Positions 4,557 to 57,724 of a stretch of 64,000 nt of DNA are shown here, in pieces; the first letter of the stretch is position 1; every line of letters starts with the position of its first letter. Made by a program: the position numbers and the translations under genes. The DNA lies in contig JAENYG010000009.1 in the NCBI GenBank assembly GCA_016841875.1, positions 62,001 through 126,000 of the forward strand, in the 5' to 3' direction. Origin of the DNA: Syntrophomonas sp. Its GTDB lineage: Bacteria > Bacillota > Syntrophomonadia > Syntrophomonadales > Syntrophomonadaceae. Under the pieces are notes generated by a model that saw nothing but the letters and a program-made list of their open reading frames with translations, did no database searches and was not told where the DNA came from.

Positions 4557-5276
4557 ATGATCAGAACAGGTAACCGGTTAAACGATCAAATGAGACCAAT
4601 CAAAATAAGTCCAGGTTTTATTAAGAACCCGGATGGTTCCGTTTTAATGGAAATGGGGGATACCAGAGTTTTGTGTTCCGCCATGCTGGAAGAAAAGGTT
4701 CCGCCATTTTTGAAAGGTACCGGAAGCGGATGGATAACTGCTGAGTATTCACTGTTACCCTCCTCGACCAATACACGTTCTTCTCGGGAGGCCAGCCGCG
4801 GCAAAATAAGCGGCAGAACTTCAGAGATACAGAGACTGATCGGCAGGTCCATAAGATCAGTAGTTGACCTGGAAAAACTGGGAGAGAAAACTATTTGGAT
4901 CGATTGTGATGTTATCCAGGCCGATGGGGGAACCAGGACCGCATCTATCACTGGAAGCTTTATCGCACTGTTTCTGGCGTTGAAAAAATACCAGCAAGCA
5001 GGTATTATTGATGAAATACCCCTGAAGGACTATGTAGCTGCCATTAGTGTGGGAATAGTTGATGGAGAAAAACTGCTTGATTTGGAGTATATCGAAGATT
5101 CGGCCGCCGAAGTTGATATGAATGTAGTCATGACCGGCAGCGGAGAATTCGTTGAAATACAGGGAACTGCTGAGGGTAAGGCATTCAGCCGGCAGGATTT
5201 AGATGAACTGCTGGCCCTGGCCCAAAAAGGTATTGAGGAACTTATTGTAATACAGAAAAGTATAATGGGAGAATGA
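4557..5276 (+). CDS. rph: RNase PH
   Basis: 239 residues, full family length. A phosphate-dependent 3'-5' exoribonuclease that trims tRNA 3' ends, acting as a hexameric ring. Visible signatures: GDTRVLCSA near residue 36, the Arg-rich [17 protein letters not shown] block around 80-97 that binds phosphate and RNA, and [10 protein letters not shown] near 122-131. ATG 4557 has GGGAGTG upstream. The stop is separated by a single base from the ATG of rdgB, a coupled pair that is common in Firmicutes. Confidence 0.95.
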
Positions 5277-9013: not shown

Positions 9014-9079
9014 AATTGTACTCTCCTAATACATGCTTAATTTACTAACATTTTACCATTATTTTTATTACCATGAACT

Positions 9080-50877: not shown

Positions 50878-51810
50878 ATGAATGTGCATGAACGCTTAAC
50901 GGAGGCGGTACGCTTAGTAAAGGAAAGAGAAAAGTGGCTTCATCGCAGAGAAATTACCGGTAATCTAATTCAAGGACAGAAAAATCTTAGGGATCAACTG
51001 AAACAACAATTGGCTTTGGAAAGCAGAGATGTGGAAAGGTTAGACGGCATTACACTCCTTAATATTTGGCATAGCCTCAGAGGAACTAAGGAAGAAGCAA
51101 AACGCAAAGAGCAAGAGGAATATCTGACCGCCAAACTTAAGTATGATGAAGCAAATGCTGCCCTGATAGCACTTGAAGCAGATCTAACTAGAATGGACAA
51201 CATTTTGGCCGCTATGGGTGATCTGGACACTAAATACCAGCAGGCTGTACGGGACAAGGAAGAGTATTTGCTTGGTTCTGGTGGATCTGAGGCTCAGCAC
51301 CTGTTTGAGATGGCCGAACAGTTGGGATACTTAAAAGCCGAGGAAAAGGAACTGATAGAAGCAATTGAAGCCGGTAAGAAAGCGGAGCAAGCATTCTCCA
51401 AGGTGCAGAAAAGCTTGGGCAGCGCTTCAGGATGGGGTGCCGTTGACTTGTTGGGGGGAGGTCTTCTAACCACTGCGATAAAGCATTCACACATCAGTGA
51501 TGCCAGGAATGAAATAGACCAGGCTCAGCTGCTGCTGCGCAAATTTCAGCGGGAACTGATTGATGTCAAAAACACCAATGACACCATTGAAATAGACGGA
51601 TTGACAACATTTGCCGATTTCCTTTTGGATGGGTTGTTATTCGACGCAATAGTTCAGTTTAAAATCAACGATGCCCAGGATCGCACCAGGCAGCTCCAAC
51701 GCCAGGTAAAGGAGACTATTCATGACCTGAACATGATGAAGGAGCAAAACATTCAAAAACTATTGGAACTCGACCAAGGACGCAGGCAAATAATAGAAAA
51801 CATCAAGTGA
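50878..51810 (+). CDS. Coiled-coil protein of unknown function
   Basis: 310 residues from ATG 50878, placed 7 nt after AAGGAGGTG. Almost entirely helical and charged, with heptad-like patterns at 5-150 and 245-308. A Gly-rich break (SASGWGAVDLLGGGLLTTA near 182-200) and a second hydrophobic segment (FADFLLDGLLFDAIV near 240-255) separate the coils. No signal peptide. I recognise no family; it may be a cytoplasmic structural or membrane-associated scaffold. An 87-bp piece of this gene is repeated at 52388-52474. It is the best-preserved large gene of the accessory block. Confidence 0.65.
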   Translation: MNVHERLTEAVRLVKEREKWLHRREITGNLIQGQKNLRDQLKQQLALESRDVERLDGITLLNIWHSLRGTKEEAKRKEQEEYLTAKLKYDEANAALIALEADLTRMDNILAAMGDLDTKYQQAVRDKEEYLLGSGGSEAQHLFEMAEQLGYLKAEEKELIEAIEAGKKAEQAFSKVQKSLGSASGWGAVDLLGGGLLTTAIKHSHISDARNEIDQAQLLLRKFQRELIDVKNTNDTIEIDGLTTFADFLLDGLLFDAIVQFKINDAQDRTRQLQRQVKETIHDLNMMKEQNIQKLLELDQGRRQIIENIK

Positions 51811-51984: not shown

Positions 51985-52386
51985 ATGATGCTTTTGATAA
52001 TAATTGCTGCTTTTTTAGTGGTGGGAATAATTCCTGCAGTTTTGATAACTAAATTTTATGATAAAAAGCCCATAAATCCATACTTGCCCGCATTTATAGT
52101 ATGGCTGTTGGGTCTTTTCAACTATGTCTATTATAAGATAATATATCTTTTACAAGATACTGGTATTGATCCTATTGGGCAATTAGGTACATTATTCATA
52201 ATGGCAATTGCGGTAATAAGCTCCTGTATTTCATGGATAATCGCTGAGGTATGGGTTAGACAAAAAGGTATAACCGAAACGAAGCTAAGGAAACTGGTAA
52301 TGGCATTGAATATCTTGACCATAGTTCTTCCTTTACTTTTTATGTTCATTGTAAGAATTATTTGGTCACTGCTGTCGCAAATGTGA
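51985..52386 (+). CDS. Small four-helix membrane protein
   Basis: 133 residues from ATG 51985, 8 nt after GGGAGGG; the TTG at 51970 is less likely. Four predicted membrane helices: about 2-22, 34-57, 65-88 and 107-130, with a K-rich loop near 95-105. No recognised family. The gene stop overlaps the copied fragment of the coiled-coil gene that starts at 52388. Unknown function. Confidence 0.55.
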   Translation: MMLLIIIAAFLVVGIIPAVLITKFYDKKPINPYLPAFIVWLLGLFNYVYYKIIYLLQDTGIDPIGQLGTLFIMAIAVISSCISWIIAEVWVRQKGITETKLRKLVMALNILTIVLPLLFMFIVRIIWSLLSQM

Positions 52387-52387
52387 A

Positions 52388-52474
52388 AAGAGTACTTGCT
52401 TGGCTCTGGTGGATCTGAGGTCCAGCACCTGTTTGAGATGGCCGAACAGTTGGGCTGCTTAAAAGCCGAGGAAA
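52388..52474 (+). pseudogene. Duplicated fragment of the coiled-coil gene
   Basis: About 87 bp matching 51259-51345 with few substitutions (shared ctggtggatctgagg, cagcacctgtttgagatggc, cgaacagttggg, ttaaaagccgaggaaa). It is in the same orientation, lacks start and stop of its own, and is followed by unrelated sequence. The region to 52582 has no other supported gene. Confidence 0.8.
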
Positions 52475-52582
52475 GCCAGAGTGCTGCCCGCTTTAGCCAG
52501 TAGCTGCGCATAGTCCGCCTCAATTATTTCTTATTATCTGACCAATGCGGTTCAACTTGCTTTAATAAGAGTTCCAACTAGG

Positions 52583-55085: not shown

Positions 55086-55306
55086 GTTTCTGCTGTGCAT
55101 CTAAAAAACCAATCCAAAGAAAAACAGCAAAAAGAAAGATAAAGCTAAGCATAAGCGTGCATGGTATCACTCCATTGGTATTTAGATAACTAGTATCTAT
55201 GATTCCAAAAGAGAGAAGGAGGAAGATTTTGTTAGGATATGTAAGATAAGATCTCATAGAACATATAAATTGAGACTAATGCCCTATTTGCGCACGATTT
55301 TAGGAT

Positions 55307-55334
55307 TTGCATTAGTATTTATATCTGATATAAT
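55307..55334 (+). promoter_or_regulatory. Promoter of the structured RNA unit
   Basis: TTGCAT (55307-55312), a 16-nt spacer, TATAAT (55329-55334). Predicted start near 55341, about 45 nt before the first conserved hairpin. Confidence 0.55.
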
Positions 55335-55340
55335 ATACAA

Positions 55341-55560
55341 ATAAGGTACATGATTTTATCTTTACTTTAGATGTTCTTGTTGAACCCGTCAGGGGAGCGT
55401 ACATAAAGTTGCTTGACTGGCTTAAGGGTTCTTAAGATAAGTAGTCGGGCGTACAGAAGTTGCCCGGTTACAAAAGACTAATAACAGGCTCCACTCACAG
55501 GGGCCCTTGTTAGTGAAATTTTATTCCTCTGCATATTATGTGCAGAGGAATTTGTTGTTT
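55341..55560 (+). ncRNA. Candidate structured RNA: tandem hairpins with a shared loop
   Basis: Hairpin 1: CCcGTCA(gggg)AGC (55385-55398) / GCT-TGACtGG (55411-55420), loop GTACATAAAGTT (55399-55410). Hairpin 2: GTAGTCGGGC (55441-55450) / GCCCGGTTAC (55462-55471), 10 pairs with two G-T wobbles, loop GTACAGAAGTT (55451-55461). The loops are nearly the same, the stems are different but fully paired, which is the pattern of a conserved RNA motif. A promoter lies upstream and an intrinsic terminator downstream (55523-55551). It stands 177 bp before the acetoacetyl-CoA synthetase gene. It could be a small RNA or an attenuating leader. It is not a class I recognise. Confidence 0.5.
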
Positions 55561-55566
55561 TTTTGT
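55523..55566 (+). terminator. Terminator of the structured RNA unit
   Basis: ATTCCTCTGCA (55523-55533) pairs with TGCAGAGGAAT (55541-55551), loop TATTATG, then TTGTTGTTTTTTT. Confidence 0.8.
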
Positions 55567-55756
55567 ATGGTGCAGCAGAAAAAACATTTCCTGTTTTCAC
55601 CCCTGCCGTATTATAAGTCACCATTTAATTAATGCTTAACCCTTGACCAGAAATATGTTATGTAATTTCCTAATGATTAGATAGGATGTTATTAACATAA
55701 TGTAGAAAGGTTAAATAGTCTCTTGTGTCCTAAAACTTAATATGGGAGTGAATCAT

Positions 55757-57724
55757 ATGAAAAAATTATTATGGAAGCCCTCGGCTGAATATGTAAAAAA
55801 GACTAATATGAACGCTTTTATGGGTTATGTAAATGCCAAATTTGGTCTTGCAATTGATGATTACCGGTCTCTTTACAACTGGTCGATTGATTATCCTATC
55901 GAATTTTGGGACACACTATGGCACTATCTGGATATCAAGTGTTCCAGGCCCTATTCAAAGCCAGTCGATGATTTATCAAGATTTCCCGGAGCTAACTGGT
56001 TCATAGGTGCTGAATTAAACTATGCGGAGAATATGCTCCGGTTTTCTTCAAGCTCGGCTCCGGCTATTATATTTCGGGGTGAGAATCAAATCAGAGAAGA
56101 GATCAGCCATAAGGAGTTATATGAACAGGTTGTCCGGCTTGCTGAAGCGCTTAGACAAGAGGGAATAAAAGCAGGGGATATAATCGCCGCGTATATGCCC
56201 AATCTACCTCAAACAGTTATAGCGATGCTCGCGTGTTCAGCTGTAGGTGCGGTATGGTGCTCGTGCGCTACTGATATTGGACCGCAGGCAGCCATTGACA
56301 GGCTGGGCCAGGTGAAACCTTCGGTATTATTTACAACGGATGGATATTTCTATAAAGGAAAACCATTCGATGTTCTAGAAAATGTAAAAGCAGTTTTGGA
56401 CGGAATCAGTTCCATAAAAAGGGTGGTTATCACTCCTTATGCGGGTCATAGTTCGAAAATAAATGAAATTCCCAATAGTGTTGGTTATGCAGACTATCTT
56501 AGCAGGAATGTGCCGCAGAATTTTGAGTTTGAGCAGCTTCCTTCGGAACACCCTCTTTTTATAATGTTTTCATCGGGAACCACCGGAAACCCCAAATGTA
56601 TGGTGCAATCAGCGGCAGGTGTTTTGATCAATCAACTAAAAGAACTGGTTTTGCATAATGACATGAAGCCTTCTGATCGCATGCTCTATATCACCAGCTG
56701 CAGTTGGATGATGTGGAACTGGCAGGCTGCAGCTATAGGAACAGGTGCTTCAATAGTCCTCTATGACGGTAACCCATCCTATCCCGATACATCTGCTATA
56801 TGGAAGATTCTAGAGGAGGAGCGGGTTACTATATTCGGGCTCAGTGCCAGCTATGTGCATGCTATTATGAAAGAACACTTTTCACCTAAGCAAGCTGTTT
56901 CGCTCCCATATCTCAGGGTCATATCCCAGACCGGTTCGGTGCTCACCGATGAAGGCTTTGAATACATTTATAAAGAGATCAAAGAGGATTTGCATTTTAA
57001 TTCAATTGCCGGGGGAACTGAAATTAACGGCTGTTTAGCATCAGGTAATCCTATCAGTCCTGTTTATTCCGGGGAACTTCAAGCCCCCGGACTGGGCATG
57101 AAGATAAATGCGTACAATGAAAAGGGAGAGCCGGTCAGAGATGAACAAGGGGAACTGGTCTGTGAACTGCCTGCTCCGTCAATGCCGATCAAATTCTGGA
57201 ATGATCCGGATAACAGCCGTTATATGGATGCTTATTTTAGAATGTATCCTGGCATTTGGCATCATGGAGATTACGTAATGATACATTCTGATACCGGGGG
57301 AATAACGTATTTTGGTCGCTCTGATTCGATCTTAAAACCATCCGGGGTTAGAATCGGAACTGCAGAAATCTATAATCAGGTTGAAAAAATTCCGCAAATT
57401 ACGGATAGTCTGGCAATCGGACAGAACTATAGGGGTGACCAGAGGATCATCCTTTTTGTTCAAACCAAAGAGGGGATTGAACTGGATGAGCAACTGAAAG
57501 AAGAAATATCAAAGTTTTTGAGGGTAAATGCTTCTCCCCGGCATGTCCCGGCAATTATTATGCAAGTGCCTGATATTCCCCAAACCCTGAATGGCAAAAA
57601 AGTCGAAAGTGCAGTTACCAATATTGTGAACGGGCGCAGGGTTACTAATAGGGATGCCCTGGGTAATCCCGAATCACTTGATTATTTTACAGGGATTTTA
57701 CCCTTATTGAATGAGCCCGGTTAG
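55757..57724 (+). CDS. Acetoacetyl-CoA synthetase
   Basis: 655 residues from ATG 55757, 6 nt after GGGAGTG; the frame also has an ATG at 55742. ANL superfamily acyl-CoA synthetase: N-terminal ACS domain, AMP-binding signature FSSGTTGNPKCMVQ near 272-285, the A8 hinge region TYFGRSDSILKPSG near 517, and the C-terminal A10 Lys in NGKKVES. Length and the N-terminal FPGANWFIGAELNYAENML block fit the AACS branch rather than acetyl-CoA synthetase. It activates acetoacetate to acetoacetyl-CoA with ATP, which would feed the thiolase at 9153. It has its own leader, possibly controlled by the hairpin unit upstream. Confidence 0.92.
   Translation: MKKLLWKPSAEYVKKTNMNAFMGYVNAKFGLAIDDYRSLYNWSIDYPIEFWDTLWHYLDIKCSRPYSKPVDDLSRFPGANWFIGAELNYAENMLRFSSSSAPAIIFRGENQIREEISHKELYEQVVRLAEALRQEGIKAGDIIAAYMPNLPQTVIAMLACSAVGAVWCSCATDIGPQAAIDRLGQVKPSVLFTTDGYFYKGKPFDVLENVKAVLDGISSIKRVVITPYAGHSSKINEIPNSVGYADYLSRNVPQNFEFEQLPSEHPLFIMFSSGTTGNPKCMVQSAAGVLINQLKELVLHNDMKPSDRMLYITSCSWMMWNWQAAAIGTGASIVLYDGNPSYPDTSAIWKILEEERVTIFGLSASYVHAIMKEHFSPKQAVSLPYLRVISQTGSVLTDEGFEYIYKEIKEDLHFNSIAGGTEINGCLASGNPISPVYSGELQAPGLGMKINAYNEKGEPVRDEQGELVCELPAPSMPIKFWNDPDNSRYMDAYFRMYPGIWHHGDYVMIHSDTGGITYFGRSDSILKPSGVRIGTAEIYNQVEKIPQITDSLAIGQNYRGDQRIILFVQTKEGIELDEQLKEEISKFLRVNASPRHVPAIIMQVPDIPQTLNGKKVESAVTNIVNGRRVTNRDALGNPESLDYFTGILPLLNEPG

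Follow-up and report, generated by a model that had tools for sequence, protein, structure and literature searches.

Organization of the locus and transcription signals

In the window, i.e., the whole 64-kb stretch of Syntrophomonas DNA that was analysed, a structured RNA lies upstream of a gene for acetoacetate--CoA ligase; all the RNA features given below are on the plus strand. The signal scan of the window places a near-consensus sigma-70-type promoter, TTTGCA-N17-TATAAT with an extended -10 (TG), at 55306-55334. This is the site that the earlier note on this DNA had read, one base along, as TTGCAT-N16-TATAAT. The promoter is seen again at the same position, in the form TTTACA...TATCTGnTATAAT, 5' of most homologues: TTTACA-N17-TATAAT is present in most members and a conserved TATCTG precedes the -10, i.e., a strong promoter type. 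The start of the RNA is predicted near 55341. The 5' leader (55341-55370) is variable and not conserved among homologues, the distance from the -10 to the core ranging from 2 to 81 nt.

The same scan gives an intrinsic terminator at 55523-55565, made of a 13-bp stem (55523-55551, exactly the coordinates proposed previously) and a T-rich tail. Individual folding of the homologues shows a terminator hairpin, often of other sequence, at the same place in nearly all of them. The proposal that the locus is a self-contained unit thus agrees with its own predicted promoter and terminator, both also found in the homologues.

Secondary structure

Computation establishes the RNA unit and its structure. 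The segment 55335-55570 folds at -84.2 kcal/mol, versus a mean of -55.3 for shuffled sequences (z = -6.6), and none of the 200 shuffles is as stable. An outer helix encloses hairpin 1; hairpins 2 and 3 follow in this order, and the terminator comes last. The outer helix combines P1a (UCUU/AAGA, 55375-55378 with 55434-55437), where all four pairs show double-sided compensatory changes, and P1b (GAACC/GGUUC, 55382-55386 with 55427-55431), where four of the five pairs do. Hairpin 1 (55388-55421) has double-sided changes in 6 of its 12 pairs and contains a conserved GG/GA internal loop (55393-55394/55415-55416) and an invariant CGUAC/GUUG module (55398-55402/55408-55411). Hairpin 2 (55441-55471) is paired in 98.4% of cells, with double-sided changes at three pairs, and carries the same CGUAC/GUUG module (55450-55454/55459-55462), here essentially invariant.

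Hairpin 3 (ACUAAUAACAGG...CUUGUUAGU, 55477-55514) comes from the individual folds of homologues: a hairpin is found at this site in 23 of 24 homologues folded singly, with some compensatory changes, and its CUAAU...CAGG block is kept in most members. It is probably accessory, since it is missing in one member (L093, genome G031).

The earlier note had given hairpin 2 at exactly these coordinates and hairpin 1 at 55385-55420, i.e., within a few bases of its place; it had missed the enclosing helix P1a/P1b as well as hairpin 3, and its description of the stems as fully paired does not hold for hairpin 1, interrupted by the GG/GA loop. A small protein encoded within the RNA was also considered. 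An ATG-started frame of 11 codons runs over hairpin 1; its start is not conserved in the homologue alignment and this candidate was rejected.

Covariation and conserved module

In the alignment of 24 members, standard pairs occupy 97.7% of cells and 17 of the 34 core pairs show double-sided changes. The covariation score is 0.364 versus 0.203 in shuffles, none of 500 shuffles being as high, and pairing falls to 28-45% when partners are shifted by 1-3 columns. It must be noticed that this alignment leans towards the model structure because it was fitted to the covariance model. An unfitted MAFFT alignment of 19 members gives 96.9% pairing and 20 double-sided cells, versus 6.3 in shuffles. The RNA of the window is under strong structural selection, and the selection at the RNA level suspected previously is borne out by compensatory changes that keep the structure across 24 genomes.

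Within the 64 kb, the pattern CGTACN{3,6}GTTG has two occurrences, both located in this RNA, versus 0.44 expected by chance. In each hairpin, the 5' strand always carries CGUAC and the 3' strand GUUG, apart from a single GUUA in 48 cases. Folding suggests the succession C-G, G-U, bulged U, A-U and C-G. The weighted column identity has a mean of 1.00 over the 18 positions of the two modules, and the GG/GA internal loop in hairpin 1 comes close with 0.97; the remaining paired positions, the terminal loops and the linkers have values of 0.73, 0.64 and 0.52, respectively. The bases of the terminal loops (4-6 nt) differ in sequence and length across species. The contrast drawn in the earlier note between conserved loops and divergent stems must therefore be shifted: the terminal loops proper vary, while the (near-)invariant part is the flanking CGUAC/GUUG, embedded in the helix. 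Since these modules approach an identity of 1.00, versus 0.64 for loops and 0.52 for linkers, the selected unit appears to be an identical helix-embedded module present twice and not a single-stranded seed; judged from conservation, the pattern would be that of a docking surface rather than of an antisense seed.

Gene neighbourhood

The next gene in the window, on the same strand, is the acetoacetate--CoA ligase gene (the acetoacetyl-CoA synthetase gene of the earlier note, correctly identified there), and the terminator ends the RNA 190 nt before it. Position and strand are those of a cis-acting leader or attenuator of this gene. Against this reading stand the intervening terminator and the congener G002, where the RNA is 94% identical and has no ligase gene beside it: the G002 RNA is directly followed by the methyltransferase and dehydrogenase genes that, in the window, lie beyond the ligase. 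When the ORFs around 27 loci are clustered, no gene family recurs beside the RNA beyond closely related genomes, and the flanking genes are on either strand across the family. This comparison refutes a cis leader as the function of the family, leaves the suggested link with acetoacetyl-CoA synthetase without a common neighbour to sustain it, and makes the leader or attenuator reading so improbable as to be negligible. Because G002 keeps the RNA without the gene, the RNA is not a leader of the ligase gene.

Since its neighbours are not common to the species compared and the G002 copy lacks the ligase gene, the RNA is very probably stand-alone and trans-acting. It has the general attributes of trans-encoded small RNAs, i.e., its own predicted promoter and terminator, an intergenic and context-independent location and a conserved structure. 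Among the loci compared, no downstream gene or pathway is conserved, as would be required of a cis-regulatory leader or riboswitch.

Two other observations concern neighbouring sequences. In the congener G003 (contig C109), the RNA homologue is followed, about 240 nt further downstream, by a strong match to the Moco (molybdenum/tungsten-cofactor) riboswitch (L005:854-971, 72.8 bits). In the window itself, minus-strand frames at 50994-51494 and 52131-52523 have peptide stretches in common, among them SSAFK.PNCSAISNRC, a sign that a segment of DNA has been duplicated within the plus-strand genes at around 51-52.5 kb.

Distribution and history

A nucleotide search of 101 relatives gives matches in 23 genomes, with 21 credible full-length or core-length homologues including that of the window. 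A covariance model of the two-hairpin core matches 26 of the 63 genomes of the order (roughly 40%), several of them too diverged for BLAST, and a second model built from 24 members finds the same 26 genomes; the search for conserved copies in relatives, advised in the earlier note, is thus positive. The search of 398 genomes of the phylum gives six matches, all known members, and none among the roughly 382 Bacillota from outside the order; full scoring was limited to the ten best candidates of each genome, so that very distant members could escape. A pattern scan of 84,980 species retrieves 20 contigs, labelled Syntrophomonadaceae, Syntrophomonas, Syntrophothermus, Gelria or just Firmicutes/Bacillota. 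A viral, phage or plasmid origin was rejected, with zero matches in viral contigs, phage records and plasmid records.

There is one copy per genome, except in G044, where a second, truncated copy (L074:1501-1585, contig C107) keeps the promoter, the outer 5' strand and hairpin 1 and has unrelated sequence in place of hairpin 2; it is probably a decayed duplicate. Presence is patchy within genera, and neither covariance model detects a copy in the congener G001, whose assembly is rated complete. The group can thus do without the function of the RNA. The equivalent neighbourhood in G001 (L149:1390-1490, contig C22) contains an inverted repeat, GGGGACGGTTCTTGCGGTTG...CAACCGCAAGAACCGTCCCC, that may be left over from a mobile element.

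The RNAs of G009 and G029 are 69% identical although both genomes are assigned to one genus, while those of G009 and G008 are 84% identical although their genera differ. Such values suggest either that the RNA was transferred horizontally or that old paralogues were lost differentially; since these genomes were assembled from metagenomes, wrongly binned contigs may also produce this pattern.

Pho-box-like repeats in one sub-lineage

Pho boxes are defined by tandem 11-nt direct repeats (PMC4415409). In G008, G009, G014 and G039, the promoter of the RNA is different, with a poor -35, and TTTAC is repeated every 11 bp upstream of it. Exact TTTAC-N6 triplets are located about 60 bp before the -10 in G008, G009 and G039; G014 is a partial case, with two exact boxes one helical turn closer to the -10 (spacing read from the sequence). 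The only other exact triplet of G008 is a run of four units that closely follows phoP-pnpS and is itself followed at a distance by pstS, so that the repeats lie between pnpS and pstS; another near-match precedes pstC-pstA-pstB-phoU. On this contig, 0.01 matches are expected by chance. The two sites of the phoP-pnpS-pstS...pstCAB-phoU region (L146, G008:C127) are at 4844-4881 (four units) and 9024-9050 (three units). A GGDEF/EAL gene directly follows the four-unit repeat, possibly a phosphate-controlled cyclic-di-GMP enzyme.

In G009, sites with one mismatch are found between two divergent genes of the Ppx/GppA family (exopolyphosphatase; ppx/gppA; L116, G009:C149) and next to a PhoB/YycF-like regulator and its kinase. 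These sites are only suggestive, because a reversed-pattern control at one mismatch gives similar totals. The eleven genomes with the other promoter type have one exact triplet in all, which is not at the RNA. The window RNA is not preceded by any such TTTAC repeat, and its genome (G000) contains no exact match at all.

The sub-lineage RNA thus has a predicted Pho box, which the window copy lacks. Because the same repeats flank phoP-pnpS/pst in G008, the RNA has probably joined the phosphate-starvation regulon in this one lineage, where it would be expressed under phosphate starvation. As far as its upstream sequence indicates, the window copy is not Pho-controlled; outside the Pho sub-lineage, the near-consensus promoter would probably make the RNA constitutive.

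Comparison with known RNA families

At the gathering threshold, no family of Rfam 15 matches the window, nor does any match the RNA at 19 homologous loci; permissive searching of 55200-55760 gives only chance-level matches, with E of at least 2. The earlier note had recognised no known riboswitch, and both thresholds agree with it. In the literature searched on Syntrophomonas small RNAs and in the structured-RNA surveys consulted, no description of the RNA is found, the coverage of the large surveys being incomplete, and the main text of the published surveys searched makes no mention of Syntrophomonas. The RNA family is almost certainly genuine, and apparently undescribed.

Like the window RNA, 6S RNA (RF00013) is structured and stand-alone and has a similar length; it acts through protein binding. 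The window RNA differs in having no 6S match and in not being one long hairpin with a central bubble. Identity with 6S RNA was rejected: RF00013 matches elsewhere in the same genome (G000:C38:109666-109841), not at the window RNA, and 6S RNA is found in 57 of the 63 genomes of the order.

Sponge RNAs of the CsrB/CsrC/RsmZ type are untranslated RNAs with repeated hairpin binding sites, in which GGA is exposed in the hairpin loops. Repeated hairpin sites are common to both, a comparison of working principle only; the window RNA has just two sites, and these are defined by a module in an internal loop, not by a motif in the hairpin loop. Since GGA is conserved in neither terminal loop, a CsrB-type sponge was discarded.

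ANTAR sites are hexaloops with fixed A1 and G4 and occur in dual-hairpin RNAs and sponges of the EutX/Rli55 type. Two adjacent hairpins bound as a pair by a dimeric protein would share this geometry; in the window RNA, however, hairpin 2 and the terminator do not overlap. The terminal loops of the family have 4-6 nt and vary in length and sequence across 24 genomes, and an ANTAR dual hairpin was rejected.

TwoAYGGAY RNAs are named after the AYGGAY loops of two hairpins with a common motif. Two hairpins with a common motif are also found here, but AYGGAY loops are absent. A table in PMC2864571 lists the TwoAYGGAY motif for human gut, gammaproteobacteria and Clostridiales. The glycine tandem riboswitch likewise has two similar domains in one RNA; the window RNA differs in having no Rfam match, no association with a downstream gene, a terminator of its own and a context-free location. 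The glycine-type tandem aptamer evoked in the earlier note finds no support, given the absence of a riboswitch match and of a conserved downstream gene.

Proposed mechanism and rival explanations

The most likely reading is that the Syntrophomonas group has a structured small RNA, about 190-225 nt long, that stands alone, acts in trans and would be transcribed between a promoter and a terminator of its own. The same module is displayed by hairpins 1 and 2: CGUAC faces GUUG, with a G-U pair and a bulged U below two pairs. The two copies would serve as binding sites for a single RNA-binding protein, probably dimeric, which would be titrated or allosterically controlled by the RNA. A Pho box would link the synthesis of the RNA to phosphate starvation in one sub-lineage. 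This two-site protein-binding RNA is the best-fitting mechanism, proposed tentatively since the odds remain somewhat below even.

No protein gene travels with the RNA across the loci compared. A single-hairpin model (34 positions) applied to 12 genomes retrieves only the RNA's own hairpins and the truncated G044 copy, and no further copies of the module: the best other matches score about 14 bits versus 29-48, and the CGTAC...GTTG strings at such weak matches have no supporting stems. Any mRNA targets of such a protein would thus lack the full element.

The main rival is an ordinary trans-encoded antisense sRNA, in which the hairpins would stabilise the molecule while the leader, the linker between hairpins 2 and 3 or hairpin 3 itself pairs with mRNAs. 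Among stand-alone bacterial sRNAs that end in an intrinsic terminator, this kind is the most frequent, and it fits the context-free location and the CUAAU...CAGG block conserved in hairpin 3 of most members. However, hairpin 3 is absent in G031, the unpaired linkers are the least conserved part, the terminal loops vary and the invariant part is inside helices. Protein binding is preferred mainly because selection bears on a duplicate, helix-embedded module and not on a seed, antisense pairing being less probable, though a serious contender.

RNA-RNA contact, in which the palindromic GUAC of both hairpins would allow internal kissing or an RNA dimer and the module would be architecture, accounts for a self-complementary sequence invariant in both hairpins. 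Drift to other palindromes would then be expected; none is found in 24 sequences down to about 52-60% identity, and the GUUG strand, not required for kissing, is almost as invariant. Contact of this kind is thus quite improbable. Still more improbable is a stand-alone small-molecule aptamer, riboswitch-like or ligand-sequestering, with one pocket in two copies: tandem aptamers are known and the invariant internal-loop module is indeed duplicated, but a 2x1 internal loop is small for an aptamer, the terminator does not overlap the modules, and neither a conserved downstream gene nor an Rfam riboswitch match is found.

Significance

Taken as a whole, the reading as a new class of regulatory RNA, with two copies of an undescribed CGUAC/GUUG module for an RNA-binding protein and rewired into the phosphate-starvation regulon in one lineage, is possible, at about one chance in three. 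Structured stand-alone RNAs that belong to no known family can open the way to RNA-binding proteins or mechanisms not yet described. This family offers a clear covariation-supported model, an invariant module to mutate and a natural variant without hairpin 3; moreover, one lineage supplies a predicted inducing condition, phosphate starvation. The hosts are syntrophic bacteria, whose regulation is poorly known.
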